From: Lachnospiraceae bacterium
GTDB taxonomy: Bacteria; Bacillota; Clostridia; Lachnospirales; Lachnospiraceae
Direction of reading: 5' to 3'
DNA: 51,118 nt
Assembly (NCBI GenBank): GCA_017523785.1
Contig: JAFWVX010000034.1
Span: forward strand, 1 to 51,118
The position numbers and the translations under genes were made by a program. Of this stretch, positions 1 through 18,353 are shown piece after piece; position 1 is the first letter of the stretch, and each line of letters begins with the position of its first letter. The notes under the pieces are model-generated. The model saw only the letters and a program-made list of their open reading frames with translations. It ran no database searches and was not told the origin of the DNA.

Positions 1-81
1 AATAACAATTAATAAAGGCACAATTGTAAACATACAAACCCAAGAAATATATGGCAAAGAAAGTATTCTTAATTTTTTCAT
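1..81 (-). CDS. potB: PotB-like spermidine/putrescine ABC permease, N-terminal fragment
   Basis: An open frame on the minus strand starts at an ATG (complement of 79-81), one base after the stop of the upstream ATPase gene, and runs off the left edge after 27 codons. The visible N-terminus (MKKLRILSLPYISWVCMF, then a hydrophobic stretch) is a cytoplasmic basic start followed by a first membrane helix. It resembles the start of PotB, the polyamine transporter permease that usually follows potA. The upstream gene has a PotA C-terminus, which supports this. Only 27 residues are visible, so the family call rests on context plus a short match. Confidence 0.6.
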   Translation of the reverse strand, partial: MKKLRILSLPYISWVCMFTIVPLLIVI

Positions 82-82
82 A

Positions 83-1186
83 TTAAATCTCCATTTTTTT
101 CATAATATGAATATCATTTGGGTCAATATCTATCCCAACCAAAGAACCTATATCTTTCGGTAGTGTTGAATGCACAATCCAGCTATACCCCGCTGAATCC
201 ACTTTCATTTCGTAATGCACTCCTTTAAAAATAATACTTTCTACCACTCCCTCTAGTCTTCCATTCCCTACTTCTAAAAGCTTTACATCTTCCGGTCTAA
301 TAACTACATCCACTTCCTCATTACAAGCAAATCCTTTATCTACACAAATAAAATCATGGCCTAAAAATCCTACCATATAATCTTTATACATAATGCCACT
401 AATAATGTTACTCTCGCCAATAAAATCTGCAACAAAGGCATTTTGTGGCTCGTTATATATATCTATCGGCGACCCAATCTGCTGAATTTGCCCGTTATTC
501 ATTACAACCACCACATCAGACATAGTAAGTGCTTCTTCTTGATCATGAGTTACATACACAAATGTAATTTCTAGCTGCTGCTGAATGTTTTTAAGTTCCG
601 TCTGCATCTCTTTCCGCAACTTTAGGTCAAGTGCCCCAAGTGGTTCATCGAGTAGCAAAACTTTAGGGTTGGTCGCTATGGCACGAGCTATCTCAAGCTT
701 TCTCTGTTTGCCGTATGGAAGATTAGCTGATTTCATCATAGCATCATTTTCAAGATTAAATACTTTGAGTAGTGCCATCGCTTCTTCATCCATAAGTGCC
801 TCATAGCGGTGATATCTTGGAAGTCTAAGTATTCCAGAAATAGTAGAATACCTATATTTATTTTGCAGTGCAATTTTTACATTGTCGTGAACTGTAAGTT
901 TGTGAAATAATCTTATGTTTTGGAAAGTTCTTGCTATTCCCATTTTGTTAATTTCAATAGTATTCTTTCCATTGATTTTATTTACACCATTTAACAAAAT
1001 TGTGCCGCTTGTTGGTTTATATACGCCAGTTAGAAGATTGAAGATAGTAGTCTTGCCTGCTCCATTTGGTCCAATTAGTCCATAGAGTTCGTTTTCTCTT
1101 ATTGATAAATTGAAATTTTCAACTGCGTGAAGTCCACCAAATTGTATTGAAAGATTTTTCACAGAGAGCATTATATTTTCTTTCAT
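83..1186 (-). CDS. Chimeric ABC ATPase: LivG N-terminal half fused to PotA C-terminal half
   Basis: This 367-residue ABC ATPase is a hybrid. Residues 1 to about 178 are LivG-type: Walker A GPNGAGKT (39-46), an inserted segment typical of LivG (about 105-150), and the LivG signature variant LPYGKQRKLEIARA (156-169) instead of LSGGQ. From Walker B (LLLDEP, 177-182) onward it is PotA-type: LGALDLKLRKEMQTEL, the switch HDQEEA (214-219), VADFIGESN, and a C-terminal TOBE-like domain (about 280-367). LivG is normally about 255 residues and lacks a TOBE domain; livF should follow livG but is absent, and a potB start follows instead. Start ATG lies just after the livM stop with AGGAGGG inside livM. 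A deletion or recombination at the conserved Walker B sequence, or an assembly artefact, explains this. The protein may still couple with LivHM, since the helical domain is LivG-like; that is inference. Confidence 0.88.
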   Translation of the reverse strand: MKENIMLSVKNLSIQFGGLHAVENFNLSIRENELYGLIGPNGAGKTTIFNLLTGVYKPTSGTILLNGVNKINGKNTIEINKMGIARTFQNIRLFHKLTVHDNVKIALQNKYRYSTISGILRLPRYHRYEALMDEEAMALLKVFNLENDAMMKSANLPYGKQRKLEIARAIATNPKVLLLDEPLGALDLKLRKEMQTELKNIQQQLEITFVYVTHDQEEALTMSDVVVVMNNGQIQQIGSPIDIYNEPQNAFVADFIGESNIISGIMYKDYMVGFLGHDFICVDKGFACNEEVDVVIRPEDVKLLEVGNGRLEGVVESIIFKGVHYEMKVDSAGYSWIVHSTLPKDIGSLVGIDIDPNDIHIMKKMEI

Positions 1187-2290
1187 TTATTTGCCCTCCT
1201 TTTTAACTTTTTTATTTCCCAAAGTTTTTAAAGCATTAAGCACAGGGAATTTATTTTTTAAAACTTCTATATATTGTTTCATTGCTGGTGCTGATGTAAA
1301 TATCATAACAACTATCAATACGATAGAATATATTAGCATTCTGAAATCTTGTAAATTTCTAAGCATCTCAGGTAAGAGAGTAAGAACTACTGCAGCGATT
1401 ATAGAACCTCTGATTCTTCCCATTCCGCCAAGAACTACGAATACGAGGATTGTGATAGACATATTGTAGCCGAAGTTTTTTGGAAGGGCAGTGAGAGTTG
1501 TAAGATTGTGTGCATATAGAACTCCTGCAACACCTGCCATACTACTTGCTATGGTAAATGCGATGAGTTTATACTTTGTAGCACTGATTCCTACAGATTC
1601 TGCTGCGATACGATTGTCACGAAGTGCTTTTATATTTCTACCAGTTCTTGAGTTTACTAAGTTTAAGATAATAGTTACAACGATTATAAGTAATATCACA
1701 CCTGCTGTAAATGAAGAGTAGTGAGGCGTACCTGTGATTCCTTGCGCACCTTTTATAACTACAAATCCATTCTTTGATAAACCAAGTGCCATAGTGTTTT
1801 TTAATGAGATATGGGCGCCGTTCTCGTCAAAGCCCAAATAAATTGCATTTGCAATATTTTTAATAATTTCACCGAAAGCGAGAGTAACGATTGCGAGATA
1901 GTCACCTTTAAGTCTTAAAACTGGAATGCCGATTAGGAGTCCAGCGACACCTGCAGTGATTGCTCCGATAAGTATTGCTATGATAAATAAATATAATCCC
2001 TCAACACCGAGAAATTTCATATACCTTGTAAATACCGCACTGGTAAATGCTCCCACGCACATAAATCCTGCATGACCAAGACTTAGCTCGCCACTTATTC
2101 CGACGACTAAGTTAAGTGAAACTGCAAGAATTGAATATGTGCAAAATGGAACAAGTAAGCCATTTAAGAGTGATGATATTTTTCCTTGAGCAGAAAGAAT
2201 CATGATAATAGCATAGGCAATAATTATCATGAGATAAATGCTTAAGTTGTATCTTGCTTTCTTTTGTCTTTTTAATTTGAAATAATCCAT
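1187..2290 (-). CDS. livM: Branched-chain amino-acid ABC transporter permease LivM
   Basis: A 367-residue integral membrane protein with about eight to ten hydrophobic helices. The conserved LivM segments are visible: NLVVGISGELSLGHAGFM near residue 60, GLLIGIPVLRLKGDYLAIVTLAFGEI near 117, and VFVVLGGMGRIRGS near 283. It forms the transmembrane channel with LivH. The gene sits 1 base after livH and ends immediately before the ATPase gene, so it is part of the livK-H-M-G operon. The C-terminus is lysine-rich, as often seen. High confidence for family; substrate specificity within the hydrophobic amino-acid group cannot be read from sequence. Confidence 0.93.
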   Translation of the reverse strand: MDYFKLKRQKKARYNLSIYLMIIIAYAIIMILSAQGKISSLLNGLLVPFCTYSILAVSLNLVVGISGELSLGHAGFMCVGAFTSAVFTRYMKFLGVEGLYLFIIAILIGAITAGVAGLLIGIPVLRLKGDYLAIVTLAFGEIIKNIANAIYLGFDENGAHISLKNTMALGLSKNGFVVIKGAQGITGTPHYSSFTAGVILLIIVVTIILNLVNSRTGRNIKALRDNRIAAESVGISATKYKLIAFTIASSMAGVAGVLYAHNLTTLTALPKNFGYNMSITILVFVVLGGMGRIRGSIIAAVVLTLLPEMLRNLQDFRMLIYSIVLIVVMIFTSAPAMKQYIEVLKNKFPVLNALKTLGNKKVKKEGK

Positions 2291-2291
2291 A

Positions 2292-3173
2292 CTATACTTT
2301 CTCTATATTTGATTTGCCAAGTATACCTGCTGGTTTTACAAGCAACATTATAATCAAAACTGAAAATACTATTGCATCAGATAACTGGGCTGAAATATAT
2401 GCCTTAGATAAATTTTCAAGGACTCCGAGAATAAGTCCGCCTATAAATGCTCCTGGAATTGATCCGATGCCACCGATAACTGCAGCGACGAAGGCTTTGA
2501 TACCAGGCATAGCACCTGTGGTTGGAGTGAGAGTTGGATAAGCTGAGCAAAGTAGAACTCCAGCGAAGGCTGCTAAGAATGAACCAATCGCAAATGTCAT
2601 TGCTATAGTTCCATTTACATTTATACCCATAAGTGTGCTTGCACTTCTATCTTCAGAAACTGCAAGCATTGCTTGACCCATCTTTGTTTTATTGATAAAT
2701 GTTGTGAGTGCAAGCATTATAACTATACAAAGAGCTATGGTTACTATACTTTCACTAGAAATCATAAGTTGTCCGTTGAAGAGTTTTAGTGGAGGAATAG
2801 TAACAATACTCTTAAAACTTTTTGTATTTGCTCCAAATATAAGTAATGCAATATTTTGCAAAAAATAAGAGACACCTATTGCAGTTATAAGAACTGACAA
2901 TGAGTTTGCCCCTCTTAGTGGTTTGTAAGCAATTCTCTCTATAGTAATTCCTATAAGTGTGCAAGCAATTGCAGCGAGTAATACACTTATAATTGGGTTA
3001 ATGCCCATTTGGCTCATAAATACAAAAGTGATGTATGAACCAATCATTAATACATCACCATGTGCAAAATTAAGCATTTTGGCTATACCATATACCATGG
3101 TATAGCCAAGTGCTATAATTGCATATATTGATCCGAGACTAAGCCCGTTTACAAAATATGTTAAAAAATCCAT
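2292..3173 (-). CDS. livH: Branched-chain amino-acid ABC transporter permease LivH
   Basis: A 293-residue membrane protein of typical LivH length. It shows the family hallmark near the N-terminus, GLSLGSIYAIIALGYTMVYG followed by MLNFAHGDVLMIG, and the later segment KAFVAAVIGGIGSIPGA (about 226-242) that corresponds to the ABC-permease coupling region. It pairs with LivM to form the import channel. It is separated by 2 bases from the substrate-binding protein gene upstream and 1 base from livM downstream, indicating translational coupling within the operon. Confidence 0.94.
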   Translation of the reverse strand: MDFLTYFVNGLSLGSIYAIIALGYTMVYGIAKMLNFAHGDVLMIGSYITFVFMSQMGINPIISVLLAAIACTLIGITIERIAYKPLRGANSLSVLITAIGVSYFLQNIALLIFGANTKSFKSIVTIPPLKLFNGQLMISSESIVTIALCIVIMLALTTFINKTKMGQAMLAVSEDRSASTLMGINVNGTIAMTFAIGSFLAAFAGVLLCSAYPTLTPTTGAMPGIKAFVAAVIGGIGSIPGAFIGGLILGVLENLSKAYISAQLSDAIVFSVLIIMLLVKPAGILGKSNIEKV

Positions 3174-3175
3174 AA

Positions 3176-4357
3176 TTAATTTGCTAATACATAAGCACCA
3201 TCTTTGATTACAACTGCCTTTGGTGTCTTATTAGGCTCTCCGTTTGATTTCCAACTGATGCTGTCACCAGTAAGTCCTTTTTGTGTGATAGAAGTCATAG
3301 CTGACTTAACGCCGTTGCAAATATCTGAAACTGAATTTGCTGGTGTTACATTTGCCTTCTCGATAGCGAGCTTAAGTGCATATGCACAGTCATAAGCGTC
3401 AGCTGCGAATTGGTTAGGAACCTCGCCATGTCTCTTTTGATACTCTTTAACGAAGTTTACAGTTAAATCGTCAGTAGCATCTGCTGAGAATGGAGTAAGA
3501 AGCATAAGTCCTTCAGCGAGAGATTTGTCAAAGTTCTCAAGTGTGAGGATTCCGTCCATACCGTCACATCCGAAGAATGTTGGAGCGTATCCCATTTGCT
3601 TTGCTTGGTTAAGAACAAGTGCAGCTTCTGAATAGTAGAATGGTAAGAATACGAGGTCAGCATTTGCTGCTTTTAATTTTGTAAGTTGAGTAGTGAAATC
3701 AGTTTTAGAATCTGCAGTGAATTGCTCATCAGCAACTACTTCATAACTCTTTCCAGCTGACTCTTGAATGAATTTCTCATAGATGCCAGTAGAATAAACA
3801 TCTGAAGCATCGTAGATAATTCCTACTTTCTTTGCAAGGTTGTGGCTATCAATGTATTGAGCTGATGCTGCACCTTGGTCAGGATCTGAGAAACACATTC
3901 TGAATACATTTGGGTTTGCAGTGCAATCTACTGCTGAACCTGATGGAGTGATTTGGAACATATTGTCTGCATAAGTTTTATCAGCAACACTTATACAAGG
4001 TGATGAAGTAGTAGTTCCGATTAATAATTGCATACCCCAGTCTTTAAGTGAGTTATAAGCATTTACAGATTTCTCTGCATCGTGCTCGTCATCTGCAAAA
4101 CGATATTCAACTTGGTAACCATTATATCCACCATTTGCATTGATTTCGTCTACAGCAATTTGAATGGCGTTCTTAACAGCTTGTCCATAAACAGCTGCAC
4201 CGCCAGTTGTAGGTCCAATTCCGCCTACTTTGAATGTTGTTGCCTCGCTTGCTGCAGCGTTAGCATCTGCAGTAGTGCTTGAAGCTTGCTTTTGTCCACA
4301 TGCGAAAAGTGTAGTAGCAAGTGTTAAAGCAAGAATTACAGATAAAAATTTCTTCAT
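3176..4357 (-). CDS. livK: Branched-chain amino-acid ABC transporter substrate-binding lipoprotein
   Basis: A 393-residue secreted lipoprotein: N-terminal MKKFLSVILALTLATT then the lipobox LFAC (Cys20), giving a lipid-anchored protein outside the cell. After a short Ala/Ser/Thr linker comes a periplasmic-binding-protein type I fold with the family motifs GGIGPTTGGAAVYGQ (about 46-60), AVDEINANGGYNG (about 70-82), and LIGTTTSSP (about 112-120). It captures the amino acid and delivers it to LivHM. First gene of the minus-strand operon; an AGGAGGAG ribosome site (complement of 4367-4374) lies 9 bases before the ATG. Confidence 0.93.
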   Translation of the reverse strand: MKKFLSVILALTLATTLFACGQKQASSTTADANAAASEATTFKVGGIGPTTGGAAVYGQAVKNAIQIAVDEINANGGYNGYQVEYRFADDEHDAEKSVNAYNSLKDWGMQLLIGTTTSSPCISVADKTYADNMFQITPSGSAVDCTANPNVFRMCFSDPDQGAASAQYIDSHNLAKKVGIIYDASDVYSTGIYEKFIQESAGKSYEVVADEQFTADSKTDFTTQLTKLKAANADLVFLPFYYSEAALVLNQAKQMGYAPTFFGCDGMDGILTLENFDKSLAEGLMLLTPFSADATDDLTVNFVKEYQKRHGEVPNQFAADAYDCAYALKLAIEKANVTPANSVSDICNGVKSAMTSITQKGLTGDSISWKSNGEPNKTPKAVVIKDGAYVLAN

Positions 4358-4393
4358 AATAAAAAACTCCTCCTAAAAAGTTGTAGAATAAAT

Positions 4394-4630: not shown

Positions 4631-4858
4631 ATGAAGTTTGAATGGAACCCAGATAAAAATGCTGATATGAATGTTGAAGTAGATTGGAATACCTCTGTTA
4701 GGAATCCTTATATTAATAAATTCACTAGGAAAGAAAAGATTAGAGCAATCTTGGATTGTATGATTGCTGTTGAAAAAGTTAGTAAAGAAAAATTAAAAAA
4801 AAAGATAATGCCATCTTGGCATAAAACAACATTTATAACTACTTTATATAGAGGTTAA
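4631..4858 (+). CDS. Small hypothetical protein, 75 residues
   Basis: A stand-alone small gene with its own strong promoter, AGGAG ribosome site 6-7 bases from the ATG, and an intrinsic terminator that begins inside its last codons. The product has an acidic, tryptophan-containing N-terminal part (FEWNPDKNADMNVEVDW) and a basic helical centre (RKEKIRAILDCMIAVEKV, KEKLKKK); no signal peptide or membrane segment. I do not recognise the family. It sits between the liv operon and the defence island; the complete transcription unit argues that it is a real gene rather than a chance frame. Confidence 0.6.
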   Translation: MKFEWNPDKNADMNVEVDWNTSVRNPYINKFTRKEKIRAILDCMIAVEKVSKEKLKKKIMPSWHKTTFITTLYRG

Positions 4859-4875
4859 AAGCCTCTATTTTTTTG
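4848..4875 (+). terminator. Intrinsic terminator of the 75-codon gene
   Basis: Seven-base stem ATAGAGG (4848-4854) / CCTCTAT (4862-4868) with a TTAAAAG loop and a run of seven T residues. The stop codon of the gene (4856-4858) lies within the loop. Confidence 0.85.
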
Positions 4876-4947
4876 TTTTTAATGTATTTTAACTTTGTGA
4901 TTTGGATTCATCTATTTAAAAAAATTCTTAATAAAGATACTAAAAAA

Positions 4948-4956
4948 TGCTATAAT
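4948..4956 (+). promoter_or_regulatory. Candidate extended -10 promoter for the defence island
   Basis: TGCTATAAT is a perfect extended -10 element, but no good -35 is present at the right distance. It is the best promoter-like sequence between the terminator at 4875 and the first island gene at 5121, and would give a leader of about 155 bases. The rest of this 260-base spacer shows no other clear element. Confidence 0.45.
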
Positions 4957-5120
4957 TATAGATAAAAAGTACAATGAATACTTATGTATTGATGTGAAAT
5001 TTATCGGACATGGTATTTAGTAAAATTGGATAAATTATTAGGTTGTATTTTTAAAATTTTGTTCAAAGTTGGTTATTATTGAGGAAATAAGAATACAAGT
5101 AATTGATATTAGGAGATAAA

Positions 5121-8100
5121 GTGGATTTAAATCAAATAATACAAAATGGGAATATTGTTTTAGTTGGCGAACAAATAGTTAGTTCTTTAACAGCTGTGAT
5201 TATTAGATTTGTTAATTTTGTTAAGAAAACTCAAATTGTTAAAAACTCTATTGATGACTTTGGTTTTGATGCTTACTTAAATGGAATTAGTGACATCAGT
5301 ATAGATGAGAATGAAATAAAATCCTTGTTATATAATTGTGACAAAACAATACAGATAGACGAATTTAAAAATTTGTTAAAAGATTATTTCGTTCAAAAAG
5401 GTGTATCAGACAGTGCTGCTGAAAGTTTGACAAAAATGTTTTTTGCAAGTTATTTTGATAATTTAAATGATGATAATAAAGCTGCTTTGTGTAAAATTAT
5501 TTGTGATATAGATGACATTAAAACATTACTTAAAAGTATTGACAAAAGAATTGAACATATAAAAACTATAGATGACATTGAAAACAAATTAAAAACAGAT
5601 TTAAGAAAAGATGCTGAAATTAAAGATTTTGATTTAAGATACTTTGAAATTGATGATAGTAATTTTATAAGCAGGTTTCGTGGATTTGTAAACAATGAAT
5701 ATGAAAAAGAAATCAATGTTGCTTGTTATTCAATTGAAGAGGGGGTATATTGTATTCTAAATTATTTGAAATATACTGCAAAAATTAGTAATGTCTATGT
5801 AATTGATGACGAGTCGACTTGGAATAGTTTAAATGAAGAGGATATTCAAGGCACAATCCTATTACCAAATTTCCTTGCAAAAAATATATATAAGAAATAT
5901 AAGAATGTTAAACACGTATTTATTTATAATAAAGATAGTAGTTTTATTAGTGGTGAGACGATAGATCTGCGTAAACGAACTATAATAAAATTAACAAGTA
6001 TTTTGCAAGATAAATATAAATTATCTTATGATGCAGCACATAAATTTTGCATTGAAACTAATGGTAATTATTATTTGGTTAAAAATAGACTTTTTAGTGT
6101 TCATGAAGAAAAATTTGCAGACAATAGTGAAAAAAAGGAATTATTCTCTTTATTTTTGATTAATTCTTTTGGAAATAGTTTACAAAGCAAGGAATTTATG
6201 AAAAAATGCTTTGACTTAGAATATGGTGATGTTATAGATGGTATTTTAAGCAAAGAGTGTTATAAAAACTATTTCAAAAAATATGATAGATATGGTGTAA
6301 CTTCTGTAGAATTGCTAGATGCTTTTTCGGTATGGGGGAAGTATGAGTTATATAAAGACATATTTGTTAAAGAAAGAATTAAGGATATCATGGATTATAT
6401 TGTAACAAATATAAAATTGAATAATAGTAATATCTATGTAGGGTTTATAAAATCATTAATAATTTATAAAACATTTAATTTTGCAATGTCTAATGACGAA
6501 TTTGATGAATTTACATGTAAAATTATATCACAGATTGAAACACAAAATGATTGGCTGGATGCCAAAAGTATACTTGATTATTTGATTGAATTGTCACCTG
6601 ATATAATAATCAAAAGAATAATTGATGAATTTAATGAAGATATGAATTCAGGGTTAATGAGTTTTTTTAGAAACAATAAAGAAGATCATTTTTACATTAA
6701 TATTCTATGGATGCTTGAAAAGAGTTTTTATTTAATAAAAGATAAAATATTATCTTTTAAAGCTTTATTCGAAATATATAGTAAGGATTTTGAATATAAG
6801 ATGAATGACCCAAAAGATATTTTGAGAAAGCTAGTATTTCCTGGGATAGATTCTCCTGTAGATTTTAGTGATACAAAGAAAATGTTTGATGAGATGATTG
6901 ATAAATATAAACCCGCTAAAATATGGGATGTCTTTTATGAGAATGTTGAAAGAGGAATAGTTTATTCGTGGTCTAAACCAAAAATATATTATCGTGAGGA
7001 AGGAAACAAAAATAATATACAAGATACATGGTTGTATTGTTTTGAAAAATTAGAGCAATTAGATAAGGATTGTATAAAAACTATAAACTGGATTAAAATC
7101 ATTTTAAATAGTTATCATACATTAAGTAATCATATTGCTATTATCACTAATACTATTAGTGGATTATGTAATAAAGATGATATTAACAAGTTCTATATCA
7201 AATATAATCTTTTACAATTATTATATAATTATAATTTTTTTGATAAAGAAGGAATATGGAACATAGATGAAGATAGCAAAAACTTTATTAAAAAATTAAT
7301 AGATGATATGCAATTTGAAAATAAATATTATGACAGTTTATTACATTTTCAGAATGATAATAATTATAATTTAATTGAGCCTGTTAAAATAAATTCTGAA
7401 AATTATATGGAAGAGAATAGGCGCTTAGCTGCAATAGATAAAAAAAAGTATTTTGATGATAACAGTAAACTGGACATAAAGATAATAGTTGATTTGTATA
7501 AGACAGTTATTCAATCTGGGGAATTTAATCAATATGATTTCCAAATAGGGCAAGATATAGCAGAGTATATCGATAATAAAAAGTTTAACAAAACCACATT
7601 TAAAATTTTAATTAATGAATTTTTGGAACCTGATAATTTTCATAGGGAAATATTTGATTATATCTATACAATTGATTTGGATGTAGAGACAATTGAAAAT
7701 ATAAAGAAAGTATATTTAGATAGGAATTTTAATAACATAAAATTTTATATAAGACTGTTAAATTTTATTTTCAGAATTAATGGAAATATAGTATTTTTAG
7801 AGAACGAAAATAATGAAATAAAAGAAATGTTTTGGAAAGATTTTGATGGTCATATTCAAATGAATGAAAATAATCATCAAGTAGTTATAGATATTTTAGA
7901 AAATTTGTTAGTGCATGAAAATTTCTCAGCTTATATATCCATTATCGATTTTAACAAAAAACTATTTGATTTCAATGAACTGAAAGAATTGATTTTAAAA
8001 TTAAGTAAAAATACAGAACTGGATATTAATAATAGTTATGCTTTATCGGATTTGTTGGAGTATTTGTATAAAAATAAGTTTGAAGACATCAAAAATGATA

Positions 8101-8735
8101 TTGAATATTTAATTCAATTATCACATATTGAATTGGAAATTTTGGAAAAGTATCATAATTGTAATTATAAGTGGACACAATATTTGTTTGAGAATAATCC
8201 AAAGATTTATGGTGAATTTGTCGTAAAGAACGATCCTAGATTGGATGAAAAAAGTAAAGAAAAATTTGTTAATAGGATTTTACGATATAATGGGTTTATA
8301 TATAGATTGAATCTAAATAAGTTAAATGAGGACGAGTTTAGAGAATGGGATAATAGTTTTAAAAATTATTTGTATAAAAATATTGAGGATAGAATTCTGT
8401 GTGAAGAAATTTATTATGAGAATATTGGTAGCATTATCGGTTTGTCAGATGTAGATACTGATGGTGCTTTTCCTAAAATTCATTATAGAAAATACTTGGA
8501 AGATAATTATAATGAGGAATTGTTTAATAGTATTGTTCAAACTAAATATAGCAAGCGAGGAATGTATACACCTAAACAGGGAGAATATAATTATAGCGTT
8601 GCTGAGTTTTTTAACAAATGTATTGAAAAGTGTCATGAGTACAAAAATACTAGTATAGTTTTAATAAGATTACGAAACCAGTTTTTAGATGATGCTGAGC
8701 GAGAAAGGGAGTTGTCTGAAAATGAAGAGTTTTGA
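5121..8735 (+). CDS. Large helical STAND-like protein without P-loop, putative defence effector
   Basis: A 1204-residue, Asn/Lys/Ile-rich protein of unknown family. I place the start at GTG 5121, because AGGAG (5111-5115) is 5 bases upstream; the reading frame is open from 5103. No Walker A motif, signal peptide or clear membrane segment is visible. Residues about 220-325 look like the second half of an NTPase module: a beta strand with VYVIDDES, then GTILLPNF, HVFIYNK, LRKRTIIKLTSILQ, and a small helical bundle ending GNYYLVKNRLF. This order resembles post-Walker B parts of STAND-type defence ATPases, by inference. The remainder is long alpha-helical repeat-like sequence, ending in a charged tail (DDAERERELSENEEF). 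It overlaps the kinase gene by 14 bases, so the two are probably translated together. Confidence 0.6.
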   Translation: MDLNQIIQNGNIVLVGEQIVSSLTAVIIRFVNFVKKTQIVKNSIDDFGFDAYLNGISDISIDENEIKSLLYNCDKTIQIDEFKNLLKDYFVQKGVSDSAAESLTKMFFASYFDNLNDDNKAALCKIICDIDDIKTLLKSIDKRIEHIKTIDDIENKLKTDLRKDAEIKDFDLRYFEIDDSNFISRFRGFVNNEYEKEINVACYSIEEGVYCILNYLKYTAKISNVYVIDDESTWNSLNEEDIQGTILLPNFLAKNIYKKYKNVKHVFIYNKDSSFISGETIDLRKRTIIKLTSILQDKYKLSYDAAHKFCIETNGNYYLVKNRLFSVHEEKFADNSEKKELFSLFLINSFGNSLQSKEFMKKCFDLEYGDVIDGILSKECYKNYFKKYDRYGVTSVELLDAFSVWGKYELYKDIFVKERIKDIMDYIVTNIKLNNSNIYVGFIKSLIIYKTFNFAMSNDEFDEFTCKIISQIETQNDWLDAKSILDYLIELSPDIIIKRIIDEFNEDMNSGLMSFFRNNKEDHFYINILWMLEKSFYLIKDKILSFKALFEIYSKDFEYKMNDPKDILRKLVFPGIDSPVDFSDTKKMFDEMIDKYKPAKIWDVFYENVERGIVYSWSKPKIYYREEGNKNNIQDTWLYCFEKLEQLDKDCIKTINWIKIILNSYHTLSNHIAIITNTISGLCNKDDINKFYIKYNLLQLLYNYNFFDKEGIWNIDEDSKNFIKKLIDDMQFENKYYDSLLHFQNDNNYNLIEPVKINSENYMEENRRLAAIDKKKYFDDNSKLDIKIIVDLYKTVIQSGEFNQYDFQIGQDIAEYIDNKKFNKTTFKILINEFLEPDNFHREIFDYIYTIDLDVETIENIKKVYLDRNFNNIKFYIRLLNFIFRINGNIVFLENENNEIKEMFWKDFDGHIQMNENNHQVVIDILENLLVHENFSAYISIIDFNKKLFDFNELKELILKLSKNTELDINNSYALSDLLEYLYKNKFEDIKNDIEYLIQLSHIELEILEKYHNCNYKWTQYLFENNPKIYGEFVVKNDPRLDEKSKEKFVNRILRYNGFIYRLNLNKLNEDEFREWDNSFKNYLYKNIEDRILCEEIYYENIGSIIGLSDVDTDGAFPKIHYRKYLEDNYNEELFNSIVQTKYSKRGMYTPKQGEYNYSVAEFFNKCIEKCHEYKNTSIVLIRLRNQFLDDAERERELSENEEF

Positions 8736-10203
8736 ATGGATAGAAAGAAAAATAAATGAATATAAAGAACAAAAAAGTAATAATGTATTTATCTCGCATC
8801 AACAAATAGAACTAATTGCTGAAATGTTTGATTCTTCAAAAATATTATCTGAATTTAACATTGAAAATATTATAATTGAAGGAATAGGTGGCAATGGAAT
8901 TGTGTTTAAATATATATCTAATGATGAGATTAAATGCATAAAGTGTTTATACAATAAACGAAAGAGAATTAGTAAAAATGGAAGAGAAATATTTTTAGGA
9001 GAGGAAAGGTTTAAGAACGAAATTAAGGCTATGAATAAGCTATCTAATATTGATGGAGTTATGCCGATAATATTTGATGGGCTAAAAGAAGAAAAATTAC
9101 CTTATTATATAATGCCATTTTATAAATGCTACAAAAATAAATTAGAAGAGTATGGTTTTAAGGAAAGAATATTACAAATGATAAGACTTGCTAATATTAT
9201 AAAATCAATTCATAGTATTAAAGATTTAGATTCCCATAGGGATATAAAATTAGATAATATTTTTGAAGAAAAAGGGAATATCTATTTATCGGATTTTGGA
9301 TTGGTGAAATTTGAAGATGATAAATTCAACTTTACTAAATATGAAAACCATATAGGACCAAATAATATATCACCACCAGAGTTTTATTCAGAAAAGTTAA
9401 GAAAAGAAATGAATTATTCGTATCAAATTTCTGATGTATATTTGTTTTCTAAAGTAGTCTGGCAAGTACTAATGAAAGATCCGCATGGTTTTTGGGGTTC
9501 ATATGTAAATAATAGAGATTGTTTTATTGATGTGGATGTTATTAGGGGTAAGTACCAAATGTTAGAAAATATATTTATTGAACCGATTAATGAGATGATT
9601 GTTAATACAACTAGCGATAATATATCACATAGACAGAAGTATAATATAGATTATTGTATAAGTTGTCTTGAAAGGGAACTAAAGTTAATAGAGGAAATGG
9701 ACAAAATTCAAATATCTTTGTCAGATTATAGAGACAAAATCAATCATTTAATGTTTTTTCAGCGTAGCAATCAAACGGCAATTTCTTTTGATAATGAGCA
9801 AGCTATAGGACTTATAATATCGATAATTAAAAGTAAAGATTCAAAAAAAATAATAGAAAGTTATAAAAAGACTAATAGGAAAACAATAAAAATTGATGAG
9901 GTTGAGTTGCAATATAGTAATGAAATATTTACAATATACTTATATGAAGGTGAAAATATAAAATACGAGTTTTGTGGAAAAATAAATTATTGTTTAGTTG
10001 ATAATGAAAAAAAAGAAATATTAATAAGGTTTGATAATGTTAATAACAAATCTTATGTCTCTACATATAAAGATATGAGTAAATATGGTACTGAAACTAT
10101 TAAAGAAGGATTTTTAGAAGAACAGAATGTAGCACAAAAATATTTGTTAGATAAAGATTGTGAGTTATTGGTTACATTTAATGGTGAATATTTGAATTAT
10201 TAA
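8722..10203 (+). CDS. Serine/threonine protein kinase of the defence island
   Basis: A 493-residue cytoplasmic protein with a complete eukaryotic-type kinase domain: glycine loop GIGGNG (54-59), likely ATP lysine K74 in IKCIKCLY, catalytic HRDIKLDN (172-179), DFG (191-193), and SPPE in the activation segment (217-220). All catalytic residues are present, so activity is expected. The domain ends near 320; the C-terminal 170 residues are unrecognised and beta-rich. There is no transmembrane helix or PASTA repeat, which separates it from the housekeeping PrkC type. Start chosen at ATG 8722, with GGGAG 10 bases upstream; an in-frame ATG at 8689 lies further inside the preceding gene. The 14-base overlap with the giant helical protein suggests that protein is its partner or substrate (inference). 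Confidence 0.85.
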   Translation: MKSFEWIERKINEYKEQKSNNVFISHQQIELIAEMFDSSKILSEFNIENIIIEGIGGNGIVFKYISNDEIKCIKCLYNKRKRISKNGREIFLGEERFKNEIKAMNKLSNIDGVMPIIFDGLKEEKLPYYIMPFYKCYKNKLEEYGFKERILQMIRLANIIKSIHSIKDLDSHRDIKLDNIFEEKGNIYLSDFGLVKFEDDKFNFTKYENHIGPNNISPPEFYSEKLRKEMNYSYQISDVYLFSKVVWQVLMKDPHGFWGSYVNNRDCFIDVDVIRGKYQMLENIFIEPINEMIVNTTSDNISHRQKYNIDYCISCLERELKLIEEMDKIQISLSDYRDKINHLMFFQRSNQTAISFDNEQAIGLIISIIKSKDSKKIIESYKKTNRKTIKIDEVELQYSNEIFTIYLYEGENIKYEFCGKINYCLVDNEKKEILIRFDNVNNKSYVSTYKDMSKYGTETIKEGFLEEQNVAQKYLLDKDCELLVTFNGEYLNY

Positions 10204-10218
10204 TAGGATAGTGTGATA

Positions 10219-13200
10219 ATGAAAAACAATTTTACTAAGAATAAAATATTCAACGAAGACACAAGAGTAAAAATCCCAGCTCTTTGTCATTTTTTGTCTC
10301 TTGGTTACAAATATATTAATATTTGTGATTCAAGTATAGATTATAATACAAATATATTTAAAGATTTGTTTAAAAAATCTATTATAAAAATTAATAATAA
10401 AAATTTTAGTGATAATGAAATAGATGATATAATTATTGATATTAGTAAGACACTTGGAAATAATGATTTAGGCAAAGAGTTTTATAATTGGCTTGTAAAT
10501 CCTAATGATAAAGTTAAATTGATAGATTTTGATAATATATCAAATAATGAGTTTTATGTTGTAGATGAATTGCCATTTTTAATAAATGTTGATAGTGAAA
10601 AAGGATCATTTAGACCTGACATAAATATATTAATAAATGGTATGCCACTCGCTTTTCTTGAAGTTAAAAAACCAAATAATGAAGGTGGAATACAAGAAGA
10701 GTTTAAAAGAATGCTTGATAATAGGTTAAAAAAGGATGAGTATAAAAGATTTTTTAACATGATACAAATTACATCATTTAGTAACAATATGGAATATGAA
10801 GAACTGGATAGTGATGAAGATGTAAAGGCAGGGTCTTTTTACTCCACACCGAATAGTAACAATACATCATTTTCATTTTTTAGAGAAGATGATGAATCAT
10901 ATTTTAATAATTATAAGTATTTACAGCTTTCAGAAGATAATATAAAAGTATTAATAAAAAAGTGTGGGTATGATGAAAAAGAATATGATACACCAGAGTT
11001 TAAACTAAATCTTTCGCATAATACACCTGTAAACAAATTTATAACTTCGTTGTATGATAAAGAAAGAATACTTTATATGCTAAATTATGGAGTTCAGTAT
11101 ATTGATGGCTCTATGTTGGAAAAGCATATTATGAGGTATCCTCAGTTTTTTGCAACAAGAAAAATAATAGAAAGATTAGAGTCAGGTGGGAAAAATGGTA
11201 TTATTTGGCATACGCAAGGATCTGGAAAGACTGCACTTGCATCTTTTGCTACTAAAGTAATTAATCGTTATTATGAGAACAAGGATATTAGTACAAGATT
11301 TTTCTTTATAGTGGATAGACTTGATCTTTTACAACAAGCAAGCGACGAGTTTAAAGCAAGAGGTCTCACTGTAATTAATTGTAAAAACAAAGAAGAATTG
11401 ATGACAGAAATCAAGAAGCCAATATCAAAAAGTAGAGATAAGAATTCAATTGGGGAAATATGTGTAGCTAATGTCCAAAAGTTAGATTCGGAATTAGAAG
11501 AAGTAAGGAATGATTATAATGTAAAAGTGCAACGAATATTTTTTATTGATGAGGCACATAGAAGTTATCAGGCAACTGGTGAATATTTTAAGAATCTAAT
11601 GACTTGTGATGTTGATGCTATTTATATTGCATTAACTGGAACACCACTTTTAACTAAAAAAGAGAGGTCAAGTTTAAAATTTGGCGACTATATTCACAAA
11701 TATTTTTATGATAAATCTATTGCAGATAGATATACATTAAAAATTAAAAAGGAAAACATTGATACAATAGCAAAATCTGAAATATTGAATAATCTAGATT
11801 TAGAAGAAAAGAACATAGATGAAAAAGAGATATTTGAATCGCCTCAATATATAGATAACCTTGGGAGATTTATTGAAAAAGATTTTAAAAATTTCCGTTT
11901 GGAAAATGATGATAATACAATAGGTGGAATGATTGTTTGTAGGACAAATCCACAAGCAAAACTTATATATGAATGGTTTAAGTCTAATTCTAAACTTGAT
12001 GTTGGACTTGTAATTTCAGATACTACTGACCCTACCCAAAATGAAAGAAATAAGAATTACCAAATAGATTTTAAGAAAACTAATAAGCCTGATATATTAG
12101 TTGTGAACTTAATGCTTACGACTGGGTATGATGTGAAAAGACTTAAAAAAATGTATTTGCTTAGAGGACCACATGCACAAGCTTTGCTTCAAACTATATC
12201 AAGGGTTAATAGACCATATAAATCGCCAAACGGTAGAGTCTATAAGTATGGATATATAGTAGACTTTGTAGATATAGAAAAAGAGTACAATGCCACAATT
12301 GATGCCTATATAAAAGAACTTGAAAGAGATTTAAATAGTAGCGGTGATAATGAGGAATCGCTTGCTGGACTTGTTATAGATAAGGAAGATATAAAAAAGA
12401 AATATGATAAATTAGAAGAGGAACTTAAAAATGAGACATTTGGCATAAATATAAATAACTTAGAATTATTTAGCAAGTTTATAGACAATCAAAATAAAGA
12501 TTCTTTATATAAAATTAGAAGAATACTCAAAAATATAAAAGACTGTGAAATAGAGTTTTTGTTGTCAAGAGCCATTGATTATGCAAAATTAATAGACAGT
12601 AGTAGGAATAAAAAATTAAAACAAATTGTCCAATCAAGGATAGATTTTTATAATTTAAAATCAAAGCCTGTTGAGATGATGAACATCATTTCAAATGATG
12701 AAGTAGTTAAAATAATATATCAATTCATTAAAAGAAATATTGTTATAATGGATATGTCTAAATTTGATTTATCAGATGAAAAGGCTGATAGGTTTAAAAC
12801 TGTTATATCTAACATCCAAAATGAGATTAAGAAGAATAAAAACAAAAATGATATTAGGATTGTAAAACTTAACGAGTTATTACAAAAAGTTTTTGACAAA
12901 ATGAATATAACAGATGCTTCGGATTTAGACGACATATCTGAAGAGCTTGCTGAAATCTATAATAGTATTTTAGAAATTAATGAAAGTAACAATCGAATGG
13001 CTGAAAAATATGGTAATAATTTTGCATTCGTAAAGACTTATCAAGATATAACAAGCAAATGCGATATTGAAACAAACGTTTTGGAAAATATGTTAAGAGT
13101 TGTATATGAAGATATAGCGGACATTGTAAATGAAGATTCATTAATTATACAAGGAAATAGAAGCTTTATATCAAGTATTAAAGAACGGATAACGACAAAA

Positions 13201-13290
13201 TTAATTTCAAATGGATTATATTCTAAAATAAGAAAATGTTATGATGAAATATTAAATGATTTATATATAAACTTACAAAGCCATATTTAA
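10219..13290 (+). CDS. hsdR: Type I restriction enzyme, R subunit
   Basis: About 1023 residues; the motor and nuclease subunit of a type I restriction complex. N-terminal PD-(D/E)XK nuclease: PDINILINGMPLAFLEVKKP (about residues 132-151) with the EVK triad. Then a superfamily 2 translocase: Walker A TQGSGKT (about 330-338), FIVDRLDLL, Walker B/DEAH IDEAHRS (about 443), LTGTPL (motif III), and QTISRVNRP (motif VI, about 660). The C-terminus is helical and would bind HsdM. ATG 10219 is preceded by AGGA at 10205; GTG 10213 in the same frame is an alternative. The gene follows the kinase after 15 bases and precedes hsdM, so restriction, modification and kinase genes are probably co-transcribed. 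Confidence 0.95.
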   Translation: MKNNFTKNKIFNEDTRVKIPALCHFLSLGYKYINICDSSIDYNTNIFKDLFKKSIIKINNKNFSDNEIDDIIIDISKTLGNNDLGKEFYNWLVNPNDKVKLIDFDNISNNEFYVVDELPFLINVDSEKGSFRPDINILINGMPLAFLEVKKPNNEGGIQEEFKRMLDNRLKKDEYKRFFNMIQITSFSNNMEYEELDSDEDVKAGSFYSTPNSNNTSFSFFREDDESYFNNYKYLQLSEDNIKVLIKKCGYDEKEYDTPEFKLNLSHNTPVNKFITSLYDKERILYMLNYGVQYIDGSMLEKHIMRYPQFFATRKIIERLESGGKNGIIWHTQGSGKTALASFATKVINRYYENKDISTRFFFIVDRLDLLQQASDEFKARGLTVINCKNKEELMTEIKKPISKSRDKNSIGEICVANVQKLDSELEEVRNDYNVKVQRIFFIDEAHRSYQATGEYFKNLMTCDVDAIYIALTGTPLLTKKERSSLKFGDYIHKYFYDKSIADRYTLKIKKENIDTIAKSEILNNLDLEEKNIDEKEIFESPQYIDNLGRFIEKDFKNFRLENDDNTIGGMIVCRTNPQAKLIYEWFKSNSKLDVGLVISDTTDPTQNERNKNYQIDFKKTNKPDILVVNLMLTTGYDVKRLKKMYLLRGPHAQALLQTISRVNRPYKSPNGRVYKYGYIVDFVDIEKEYNATIDAYIKELERDLNSSGDNEESLAGLVIDKEDIKKKYDKLEEELKNETFGININNLELFSKFIDNQNKDSLYKIRRILKNIKDCEIEFLLSRAIDYAKLIDSSRNKKLKQIVQSRIDFYNLKSKPVEMMNIISNDEVVKIIYQFIKRNIVIMDMSKFDLSDEKADRFKTVISNIQNEIKKNKNKNDIRIVKLNELLQKVFDKMNITDASDLDDISEELAEIYNSILEINESNNRMAEKYGNNFAFVKTYQDITSKCDIETNVLENMLRVVYEDIADIVNEDSLIIQGNRSFISSIKERITTKLISNGLYSKIRKCYDEILNDLYINLQSHI

Positions 13291-13312
13291 TGAATAACAA
13301 AAGGCGGTAATT

Positions 13313-14989
13313 ATGGAAGATATTTTAAGTGTTGAGATTAAAATTAAACAAATAATTGATGAATTAAAAGGCTTGTGCCAAACGAATGGGCTATCTAATC
13401 AAGCATCAGAAGAAGTGGTTATAACTTCTATATTTTTATATAAATTTTTAAATGACAAATTTATGTATAACTTGAAAGAATTTTCAAAAGAGATTAAAAT
13501 GCCTGTTGACAAGATTTTAGAAAATAAGAATTATGAACTTGATGGATTTTATGATACATATTCATCGGATGTAGCATTTACCTATGATGAAACAATAGAA
13601 TGCCTTATTAATAAAATTAACAGTGATACATTTTATAAAACATTTGATGATGCACTTGAGAGAATATCTAATAATACTAGAAATGAAATATTCAGAGTAG
13701 AAACAGCTGAGGGTAAAAAGAATGCATTATTTACCCGTATTACTGAGAATGTTGAAGCTTCAAAGAGAAACAATTTTGCTAAAAATATTTTTGGAATAAT
13801 AGGAGTTGAAAGATTTGATTTCTCTAGTGTTTTTAAGAATAATTTTGACTTTTATAGCACGATTTTTGAATATTTGATCAAAGACTATAATGTAGCAAGT
13901 GGTGTATATGCAGAATATTTTACCCCTCAAGCGATTTCTAAAGTTATAGCCAATATATTAGTTAATATGAGTAATATAGAAGATAAAATATATGATGTAT
14001 ATGATCCATCAGCAGGTTCTGGGTCACTTGTTTTACATCTTGCAAATTCTTTAGGAAAAGGTTCTTTTGGAGATAAAGCAAGAGTTTATACGCAAGATAT
14101 CTCTGGAAAGTCGTCTAGATTTTTGAGAATTAATATGTTGTTAAATGGACTTACAAGTTCTTTACCTAATATTATAGAGGGGGATACGTTAGATACACCA
14201 GCACATTATAATGTTGAGCATAATCAAACATCAGGGATTAAACAATTTGATTTTATTACTTCAAATCCTCCTTTTAAAATGGATTTTTCATCAACGAGAA
14301 ATAGCATAATCCGTAAATGGGATGAATCAGAAGAACATGATGGACTTAGAAGATTTTTTGCTGGAATTCCAGAAGTTCCTAAAAAGAATAAGAAAAAAAT
14401 GCCTATATATTTGTGTTTTATACAACATATATTATGGTCTTTAAAAGATAATGGTAAGGCTGCAATAGTAGTTCCAACAGGCTTTTTAACTGCTCAATCA
14501 AAAATAGAACATAAGATAAGAGAAACAATTATAGAAAGGCATTGGCTAAAAGGTGCTATATCTATGCCGTCTAACATTTTTGCAAATACTGGAACAAATG
14601 TATCAGTTTTGTTTATCGATAAGTCAAATAAGAAAGGTAATATTATTTTAATAGATGCATCAAATCTTGGCAAAAAAGTTAAAGATGGGAATAATCAAAA
14701 AACTGTATTAAATGATGATGAAACAAAAAAGATTGAAGATACTTTTATAAAACAAAAGCAAGTTGATGACTTTTCTGTAAAAGTATCATATGAAGATATA
14801 AAAGAGAAAGATTATAATTTATCAGCGGGGCCTTATTTTGAAATAAGGATAGAACATATTGATATAACAAAGAAGGAATTTGATAAAAAAATGAAAGAGT
14901 ATGAGAATGAGTTAACTGAAATGTTTGATGAGAGTAAAAAAATAGATAAAGAAATATTGAAAAGTTTTAGTAAAATTGGTTTGAAATAA
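13313..14989 (+). CDS. hsdM: Type I restriction-modification DNA methyltransferase, M subunit
   Basis: A 558-residue N6-adenine methyltransferase. An N-terminal helical HsdM_N-like region (about 1-150) precedes the catalytic domain, which carries the S-adenosylmethionine motif DPSAGSGSL (about 231-239) and the catalytic NPPF (about 317-320). It methylates host sites in complex with HsdS and supplies the core for HsdR. A ribosome site AAGGCGGT lies before ATG 13313. Its stop overlaps the hsdS start by one base (TAATG), which ties the levels of the two subunits. Confidence 0.95.
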   Translation: MEDILSVEIKIKQIIDELKGLCQTNGLSNQASEEVVITSIFLYKFLNDKFMYNLKEFSKEIKMPVDKILENKNYELDGFYDTYSSDVAFTYDETIECLINKINSDTFYKTFDDALERISNNTRNEIFRVETAEGKKNALFTRITENVEASKRNNFAKNIFGIIGVERFDFSSVFKNNFDFYSTIFEYLIKDYNVASGVYAEYFTPQAISKVIANILVNMSNIEDKIYDVYDPSAGSGSLVLHLANSLGKGSFGDKARVYTQDISGKSSRFLRINMLLNGLTSSLPNIIEGDTLDTPAHYNVEHNQTSGIKQFDFITSNPPFKMDFSSTRNSIIRKWDESEEHDGLRRFFAGIPEVPKKNKKKMPIYLCFIQHILWSLKDNGKAAIVVPTGFLTAQSKIEHKIRETIIERHWLKGAISMPSNIFANTGTNVSVLFIDKSNKKGNIILIDASNLGKKVKDGNNQKTVLNDDETKKIEDTFIKQKQVDDFSVKVSYEDIKEKDYNLSAGPYFEIRIEHIDITKKEFDKKMKEYENELTEMFDESKKIDKEILKSFSKIGLK

Positions 14990-16194
14990 TGAAGTTAAAT
15001 ATTGGAAAAGATATGTATTTGAAAGGTCGTATAGGTTGGAAAGGACTTAGTAAAAATGAATATCTTGATAAAAGTGAATATAAGATCATCAATGCAACTG
15101 CCTTAAATGACGGATTAGTTGACTATGAAAAATGTGGATATATTTCAAAAGAAAGATTTTTAGAATCAGAAGATATAATTGTAAAGAATAATGATATTCT
15201 TATATCAAAAGATGGAACATTAGGAAAGATAGGATATGTTAAGAATTTAAAGGAAAAATTAACAGTCGCATCAGGTATTTTTATTCTAAGAAATAGTAAA
15301 ATCAAAGAACTTAACATGGATTATTTATATCATATATTAAAAAGTGATATTTTCAAAAATTTTATCAATAAGAAAAAAGCATTAGGAAGTACTATAAATC
15401 ACTTATATCAAAGAGATTTAGAGCAGTTTGAAATTGATATACCAAATTATAAACAACAAACAAGCATTTCTAATATTTTAAATCAAATTGAATTAAAAAT
15501 GGATATTAATAATAGGATTATAATGAAGCTTGAGTCTATGATGAAAGACATCTATGACTATTGGTTTGTGCAATTTGACTTTCCAAATGAAAAGGGTAAG
15601 CCATATAAAAGTAGTGGTGGGAAGATGGTGTATAATGAAAAACTAAAAAGAGAAATACCGGAAATATTTGGATTGAAAACCGTTGAGGATTTTTGTGATA
15701 TTTTTACTGGTAAAAAAGATGTTAATAAATCACTTGATAACGGAAAATATAAGTTCTTTTCGTGTGCTCCAGAATTTAGATATTCTAATGAGTATTTGTA
15801 TGATGGCAAAGCTATTCTTGTATCTGGCAATGGATCATATACTGGAAGAACTATATTTGTAAATGATAAATTTGATTTATACCAAAGGACATATGCGATT
15901 GTAATCAAAGATGATACACAAGATATAATTGAATTTATATATTTATCTTTAAAAACATATTTTGTATTAAAGGTTAAAGGTGGAACTCATGGCTCTGCTA
16001 TTCCTTATATAGTTTATAATGATATTGCAAATGAACCAATATTATATAATAAAGAAATAATTATGAAATTTATAGATATTGTAAAGCAATTGTTGCAAAA
16101 GATTGTAGCAATTAAGAACCAAAACGATAAATTAAAAGAATATAAAAACTTTATTTTACCACTTCTTATGAATGGTCAAGTAGAGGTTGTGTGA
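14989..16194 (+). CDS. hsdS: Type I restriction-modification specificity subunit
   Basis: A 401-residue DNA-recognition subunit with the usual two target-recognition domains. The first covers about residues 1-150 (KGRIGWKGLSK, NNDILISKDGTLGKIG). A central helical spacer follows (QQTSISNILNQIELKMDINN, then DYWFVQFDFP). The second domain, about 220-355, contains YRYSNEYLYDGKAILVSG-like sequence and GGTHGSAIPYI, and a distal helical repeat ends the protein. The two domains differ, so a bipartite asymmetric site is expected; the site itself cannot be read from sequence. Only one intact hsdS is present, with no inverted hsdS fragments that would indicate phase-variable shuffling in this window. 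Confidence 0.93.
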   Translation: MKLNIGKDMYLKGRIGWKGLSKNEYLDKSEYKIINATALNDGLVDYEKCGYISKERFLESEDIIVKNNDILISKDGTLGKIGYVKNLKEKLTVASGIFILRNSKIKELNMDYLYHILKSDIFKNFINKKKALGSTINHLYQRDLEQFEIDIPNYKQQTSISNILNQIELKMDINNRIIMKLESMMKDIYDYWFVQFDFPNEKGKPYKSSGGKMVYNEKLKREIPEIFGLKTVEDFCDIFTGKKDVNKSLDNGKYKFFSCAPEFRYSNEYLYDGKAILVSGNGSYTGRTIFVNDKFDLYQRTYAIVIKDDTQDIIEFIYLSLKTYFVLKVKGGTHGSAIPYIVYNDIANEPILYNKEIIMKFIDIVKQLLQKIVAIKNQNDKLKEYKNFILPLLMNGQVEVV

Positions 16195-16961: not shown

Positions 16962-18353
16962 ATGAAAAAGTTAGAAAATCAGAATATTGAATACAAACAA
17001 TCTTGGCACGATGAATGTTTGAAGTGGATATGTGGATTTGCCAATAGCGATGGTGGCAAGATTTATATTGGGATGGACGACAAAGGTAATGTAATTGGCA
17101 TTGATAATCCTAAAGATTTACTTGAAATAATACCTAATAAAATTGCTGACACTATGACAATTTTGCCAAAAGTTAATTTGATTAAAAAGAATAGAAAAGA
17201 TGTTATCGAGATTATTGTCGATAGTTATTTTAGTCCAGTTAGTTATAAAGGTAAGTATTATCGTAGAGTTGGTGCTACAAATAGAGAAGTTGATGGCAAC
17301 GAATTAAAGAAGATTTTTGATAAAAAATACAATATCGACTATGTAGATTTTGGCATGGATAATATCAAGTTAAATGATATAGATAGTCGAGTTATAGACA
17401 TTTTCAAAGAGAATGCGATACGAAGCAAGAGAATGAAAAAATCTGACTTGCAATGTAGCAAAAAAGATTTGTTAGAAAAGCTTAACCTAGTAAATGATGA
17501 AGGTAAAATCAAAAGAGCAGCAGTATTGCTATTTAGCAAAGAACCACAAAAATATTTTTTAAATTCGCATATTAAAATTGGATATTTTGACAAAAACGAT
17601 GCTGATTTAAAATTTCAAGATGAAATATATGGTTCTCTAATAACACAAGTTGATGATACTATGGACTTACTATTTATAAAATACTTAAAGGGCTTGATTT
17701 ATTATAAGGGTGTACAAAGAATAGATCAATATCCTATTGATAGAGATGCATTTAGAGAAATTTTAGTAAACGCTATAGTGCATAAAGATTATTCTATTAA
17801 AAATCCAATTCAAATTAGTGTGTATAAAGATAAAATATATATATTTAATGTTGGGCATTTCCCTTCTAAACTTAATACTGAAGTTGCATTATATAAAAAG
17901 CATAGTTCAAAACCATATAACCCAACAATAGCCAATGTATTTTATAAAGCTGGATTTATTGAGGGTTGGGGAAGAGGCTTTGAAAAAATAATGGATGGAG
18001 TGAGAAGGAATCCTGGTAATAGACCTAAATATGATATTGATGATGAGGGAGTAATGGTTCTTTATGAGGCTTGCAAGCAGTACAAAAAGTTGTTAGCTGA
18101 AGATACTACCCAAACAACTACCCAAACTGCTACCCAAACAACTACCCAAACTGTTGCCCAAACAAAAGAAGAATTAAGCAGTAAAATTATAGATATAATA
18201 AAACATAATAAACATGTTACGTTAAAAGAAATTGCTGAAAAATTGAATAAATCTCGTGATGGTATAAAATATCATATTACAAAAATGCAAAAAGCTGGAA
18301 AGATTAGACACATAGGAAAAGTGAATGATGGTTATTGGGATATTATAAATTGA
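16962..18353 (+). CDS. Schlafen/AlbA-domain putative transcriptional regulator with HATPase-like and winged-helix domains
   Basis: A 463-residue protein of the COG2865-type family. The N-terminal AlbA_2 domain (about 1-120) shows NIEYKQSW, GFANSDGGKIYIGMDD, and YYRRVGATNREVD. A central HATPase_c_4-like segment carries REILVNAIVHKDY (about 265-277) and IYIFNVGHFP. A low-complexity linker of five four-residue TTQT-type repeats (382-401) leads to a C-terminal winged helix (about 405-463; VTLKEIAEKLNKSRDGIKYHI). Such proteins often accompany restriction and toxin loci and are thought to bind nucleic acid or regulate the neighbouring genes. It is the last gene of the island; rarA follows with its own promoter. 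Confidence 0.85.
   Translation: MKKLENQNIEYKQSWHDECLKWICGFANSDGGKIYIGMDDKGNVIGIDNPKDLLEIIPNKIADTMTILPKVNLIKKNRKDVIEIIVDSYFSPVSYKGKYYRRVGATNREVDGNELKKIFDKKYNIDYVDFGMDNIKLNDIDSRVIDIFKENAIRSKRMKKSDLQCSKKDLLEKLNLVNDEGKIKRAAVLLFSKEPQKYFLNSHIKIGYFDKNDADLKFQDEIYGSLITQVDDTMDLLFIKYLKGLIYYKGVQRIDQYPIDRDAFREILVNAIVHKDYSIKNPIQISVYKDKIYIFNVGHFPSKLNTEVALYKKHSSKPYNPTIANVFYKAGFIEGWGRGFEKIMDGVRRNPGNRPKYDIDDEGVMVLYEACKQYKKLLAEDTTQTTTQTATQTTTQTVAQTKEELSSKIIDIIKHNKHVTLKEIAEKLNKSRDGIKYHITKMQKAGKIRHIGKVNDGYWDIIN
18105..18164 (+). repeat. Five tandem 12-base repeats encoding TTQT linker
   Basis: Units of the form ACTACCCAAACW (act/acc/caa/aca or act) repeat five times, coding TTQT, TTQT, ATQT, TTQT and VAQT. The near-identical DNA can expand or contract in steps of four residues without a frameshift, changing the length of the linker between the HATPase-like and winged-helix domains. 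Confidence 0.9.

Follow-up and report, generated by a model that had tools for sequence, protein, structure and literature searches.

The window, which is the whole stretch of DNA analysed here (51,118 bases), is an entire contig of a draft genome (G000:C12:1-51118), its final base being the final base of the contig. The draft comprises 48 contigs with 1.216 Mb at an estimated completeness of 55.97% and contamination of 1.14%. A single open frame of 367 amino acids occupies window positions 83-1186 on the minus strand. Its front part, as far as DEP (residue 182), is LivG, the ATPase of a branched-chain amino acid ABC transporter; the rest is PotA, the ATPase of a polyamine ABC transporter, and the join is at 642/643. 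The genes upstream are livM, livH and a livK-like gene, in that order, named partly from reading their translations and partly from congener counterparts. The features are as follows:

1..81, minus strand: first codons of a potB-like gene, truncated at base 1 by the contig end (start read by eye; the gene after potA in relative L086 is potB-like)
83..642, minus strand: 3' part of a potA distinct from that of the genus (from LGALDLKLRKEMQ on, carrying TOBE_2; from the domain match, identity comparisons and tree)
641..667, minus strand: join region, codons for PKVLLLDEP, encoded by congener LivG and many PotA genes (congeners PKVLLLDEPAAGMNE; PotA relatives often PKVLLLDEPLGALD)
643..1186, minus strand: 5' part of the native livG, residues 1-181 and base 1 of codon 182, running from Walker A to Walker B (residues 1-176 with 99.4 and 98.9% amino acid identity to livG of G003 and G011; 89% DNA identity to both across the liv cluster, stopping at the join)
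1187..2290, minus strand: livM, native (open reading frame; 367-aa counterpart at the same position in G003)
2292..3173, minus strand: livH, native (open reading frame; 293-aa counterpart at the same position in G003)
3176..4357, minus strand: livK-like substrate-binding lipoprotein gene, native (open reading frame; named from reading the translation; DNA conserved in congeners)

The frame carries a LivG-type ATPase front half through Walker B and a PotA-type C-terminal half. Residues 1-176 scored best against congener LivG, while residues 183-367 scored best against PotA of other Clostridia. Pfam identified ABC_tran and a C-terminal TOBE_2 domain. Among the 25 listed of 186 matching NCBIfam models, PotA-type and LivG models matched the frame, each below its own cut-off; the LivG model NF008449 reached 229 bits against a cut-off of 362. 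The stop codon lies at 85-83 and is followed by the potB-like ATG at 81-79, of which only the truncated start is present in the contig. An earlier note, made from the sequence, had described one intact frame reading as LivG and then PotA, a TOBE-like C-terminus and a potB start directly after it, and all three descriptions hold; it had named no strand.

Elsewhere in the window, a type I restriction-modification set on the plus strand lies within 5103-16194, a stretch that is possibly a composite defence locus, with HsdR at 10213-13290, HsdM at 13313-14989, and HsdS, which additionally matches mad5, at 14989-16194. It is preceded by a 1210-aa protein, for which neither Pfam nor PADLOC gave a match at E 0.001, and by a kinase-like protein of 504 aa with a weak match to PD-T4-6 and mad6. 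GC content was 0.22-0.26 at 4801-6000. Beyond the restriction genes comes a frame of 250 aa that matched nothing, and then a plus-strand gene at 16962-18353 for a Schlafen/AlbA_2 protein, whose C-terminal domain is of RecG type and which also has a winged helix.

Ancestry of the LivG half

The two halves were aligned separately, as the earlier note had proposed, and they differ in ancestry with a sharp switch between them. Residues 1-176 were 99.4% identical to the LivG of G003, 98.9% to that of G011, 95% to that of G004, and 90-91% to those of G001, G002, and G006. Judged by these identities, the LivG half is native to the genome. It resembles LivG throughout its front half to Walker B and in its livK-livH-livM surroundings, but it lacks the DEPAAGMN continuation, the length of about 256 aa and the downstream livF of that gene.

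The first 5000 bases of the window were compared with 11 other members of the genus. The liv cluster occurred in nine of them, and in all nine the DNA similarity ended at query position 4359-4360, which is 641-642 of the window (the match in G010 falling into separate pieces). G005 and G007 gave matches only to other liv and pot genes, and no DNA match across the join was found in any of the 11. In blastn comparisons with five congener stretches, similarity ended at 641-645 in four (G003, G011, G001, and G006) and at 659 in G002. The earlier note had named the IAR...PKVLLLDEP stretch as a natural crossover point, and this is the place where the congener similarity ends.

Five of six congener livG genes (G001, G002, G003, G006, and G011) carry LLLDEPAAGMNENE, with LLLDEP followed by AAGMNENE and the frame open to its own stop. 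This AAGMNENE continuation is missing from the hybrid, as is the livF that follows livG in G003. The sixth gene (G004) reads DEPAA, as in LivG, to the end of its contig C15, which lies 9 bases beyond the join point. Bases 1-9 of locus L056 (G004:C15:1-6000) are thus all that this contig keeps beyond that Walker B position in livG. A second genome's assembly likewise broke at the Walker B motif; this is one case and is suggestive, no more.

Ancestry of the PotA half

Residues 1-176 were only 26-30% identical to genus PotA, and the PotA-type front half is missing from the frame. The likeness to PotA consists of LGALDLKLRKEMQ, HDQEEA, TOBE_2, and the potB-like start after it, whereas the front half is that of LivG. 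Residues 183-367 were 55-60% identical to the best PotA of all 12 genus genomes, the own genome included. Against 19 family loci, taken from the best DNA matches in the 126 of 200 genomes that gave a match, identities were 56-66%. With other Clostridia they reached 72% among the matches listed (80 of 592 relatives).

The own potA of the genome is intact on contig C19, followed by two intact permease genes, and is 56% identical to the hybrid over the PotA half. The idea that liv and pot operons belonging to a single genome were joined is therefore not supported, and a fusion of the genome's own operons was rejected since the own potA is both intact and divergent. The livF, the end of livG and the front half of potA had been described as missing. 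They are indeed absent at the hybrid locus, and the livF of the liv cluster was not found in the draft, where its best match was 55% on contig C25; a whole potA, however, is present on C19. Besides the hybrid, the best match in the draft to the livG of the cluster was 51%, also on C25, where a second livG-livF-like pair is located. The lost livG end and livF were not on C4 (first 3000 of 7443 bases) or C14 (whole), which by reading carry other ABC systems. The missing livF could stem from the 56% completeness of the draft and says little alone.

A real internal deletion that fused the genome's own liv and pot operons could draw on both gene types in the draft, namely the liv cluster, the C25 pair, and the pot genes on C19. 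Against it stand the intact and divergent C19 potA and the position of the PotA half outside the clade that holds genus PotA (below), and such a deletion is the most improbable of the readings considered.

In a tree of 105 of 112 candidate rows (L037, L085, L120, L139, L144, L154, and L156 were dropped for having no motif with a long enough frame), 11 of the 12 best genus PotA matches were included and all 11 formed one clade (100/99). A clade of 22 rows (100/99) united these 11 with 11 of 18 family rows, and the hybrid PotA half fell outside it, placed without support anywhere in the tree. The other-Clostridia rows, 27 of 75 of which were labelled Oscillospiraceae in their record titles, had been picked by likeness to the PotA half, which biases its placement toward them. 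Since seven of the 18 family rows lay outside the 22-row clade, the family has several PotA lineages. In an AU test on a quick tree of 60 hand-picked rows of the tree set, forcing the PotA half into the genus cost 46 log-likelihood units (p = 0.0385), a modest rejection of that grouping. Judged by these comparisons, the PotA half looks foreign at the level of the genus, though not demonstrably at that of the family. A GC-skew step at the join was considered as further evidence and rejected, as the potA genes of congeners have similar skew.

The occurrence of several PotA lineages in the family would also suit a mis-join within one genome, to an additional pot operon of divergent sequence that a 56% complete draft could miss; this would still be an artefact. 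The single clade of genus PotA that excludes the hybrid half speaks against such an operon. The potB of a PotA relative matched the draft at 41 and 25% on C19 and at 24% on C25, so no second close potB is present in the draft, and this origin is very unlikely.

Origin of the hybrid frame

PKVLLLDEP is encoded at the join by congener LivG and by many PotA genes alike, and because the two share their codon phase, a switch from one to the other automatically leaves the frame open. The longest exact run of bases abutting the join was 14 among the loci compared, which is shorter than the word lengths that assemblers commonly use. This comparison, like that of half identities, also took in portions of C31 and the opposite end of C12. 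No close DNA source of the PotA half was found among 200 family genomes, where the best-scoring match was 72% over 467 bases, or among 391 class genomes, where it was 73% over 413 bases. A further 28 and 4 genomes gave no match at E 1e-68, a threshold that was unreached even by the genomes on which these sets were centred. A closer donor may exist, since the 200 and 391 genomes were drawn evenly from larger groups and the relatives listed were 80 of 592.

The hybrid frame is very probably an assembly artefact, formed by a mis-join with the potA of another organism. This reading rests on the join lying near a contig end, the native LivG half, the PotA half unlike the genus's own, the end of similarity at a single position in all congeners that carry the cluster, and the intact potA elsewhere. 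While extending the contig of the native livK-livH-livM-livG-livF operon, the assembler would have come to the conserved Walker B codons of livG (PKVLLLDEP), crossed to the matching stretch of a potA, run 642 bases further and stopped. The source of this potA would most likely be a different Clostridia-type organism in the sample, and its gene would share enough bases with livG at the join to allow the crossing during assembly. A missing livG end and livF would be the outcome given by a contig that leaves the operon at livG. The perfectly open frame counts against an artefact, though it is predicted by the shared codon phase, and the low estimated contamination counts against a chimera with another organism.

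Chimeric contigs are a known kind of metagenome assembly error. Like them, the hybrid has its join within conserved sequence and close to where a contig of a draft assembly ends, the PotA side being the terminal 642 bases, and its two sides differ in ancestry. In contrast to chimeras demonstrated from reads and donor sequence, this one is inferred.

A real fusion is unlikely; in it, a pot operon gained by horizontal transfer would have recombined with livG at the shared Walker B stretch to give a hybrid importer ATPase. It would account for the intact frame at a plausible homologous site, for the divergence of the PotA half from that of the genus, which transfer would produce, and for the potB-like start right behind the frame, as in a real operon. 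The location at the contig end argues against it, as does the lack of a DNA match over the join in any of the 11 congeners. Moreover, both congeners with a 99% identical LivG half continue as LivG to the stop, and the draft holds no second close potB, though it is incomplete. Among the papers listed by a literature search, none was evidently on a LivG-PotA fusion. The earlier note had left the choice between a real deletion and a mis-join of two operons; the mis-join is much better supported, and a deletion of the genome's own operons is strongly disfavoured.

If the fusion were real, contact with LivHM might persist through the LivG-like helical domain and Q-loop, and the hybrid would perhaps drive LivHM under a PotA-type regulatory C-terminus; it would then probe the extent to which importer ATPases can swap halves. 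For the preferred assembly artefact, the lesson is one of care: in abundant families, for instance the ABC ATPases, conserved motifs can yield in-frame, annotatable hybrids at the contig ends of drafts, and an open frame is no safeguard against an artefact because the motif fixes the phase.
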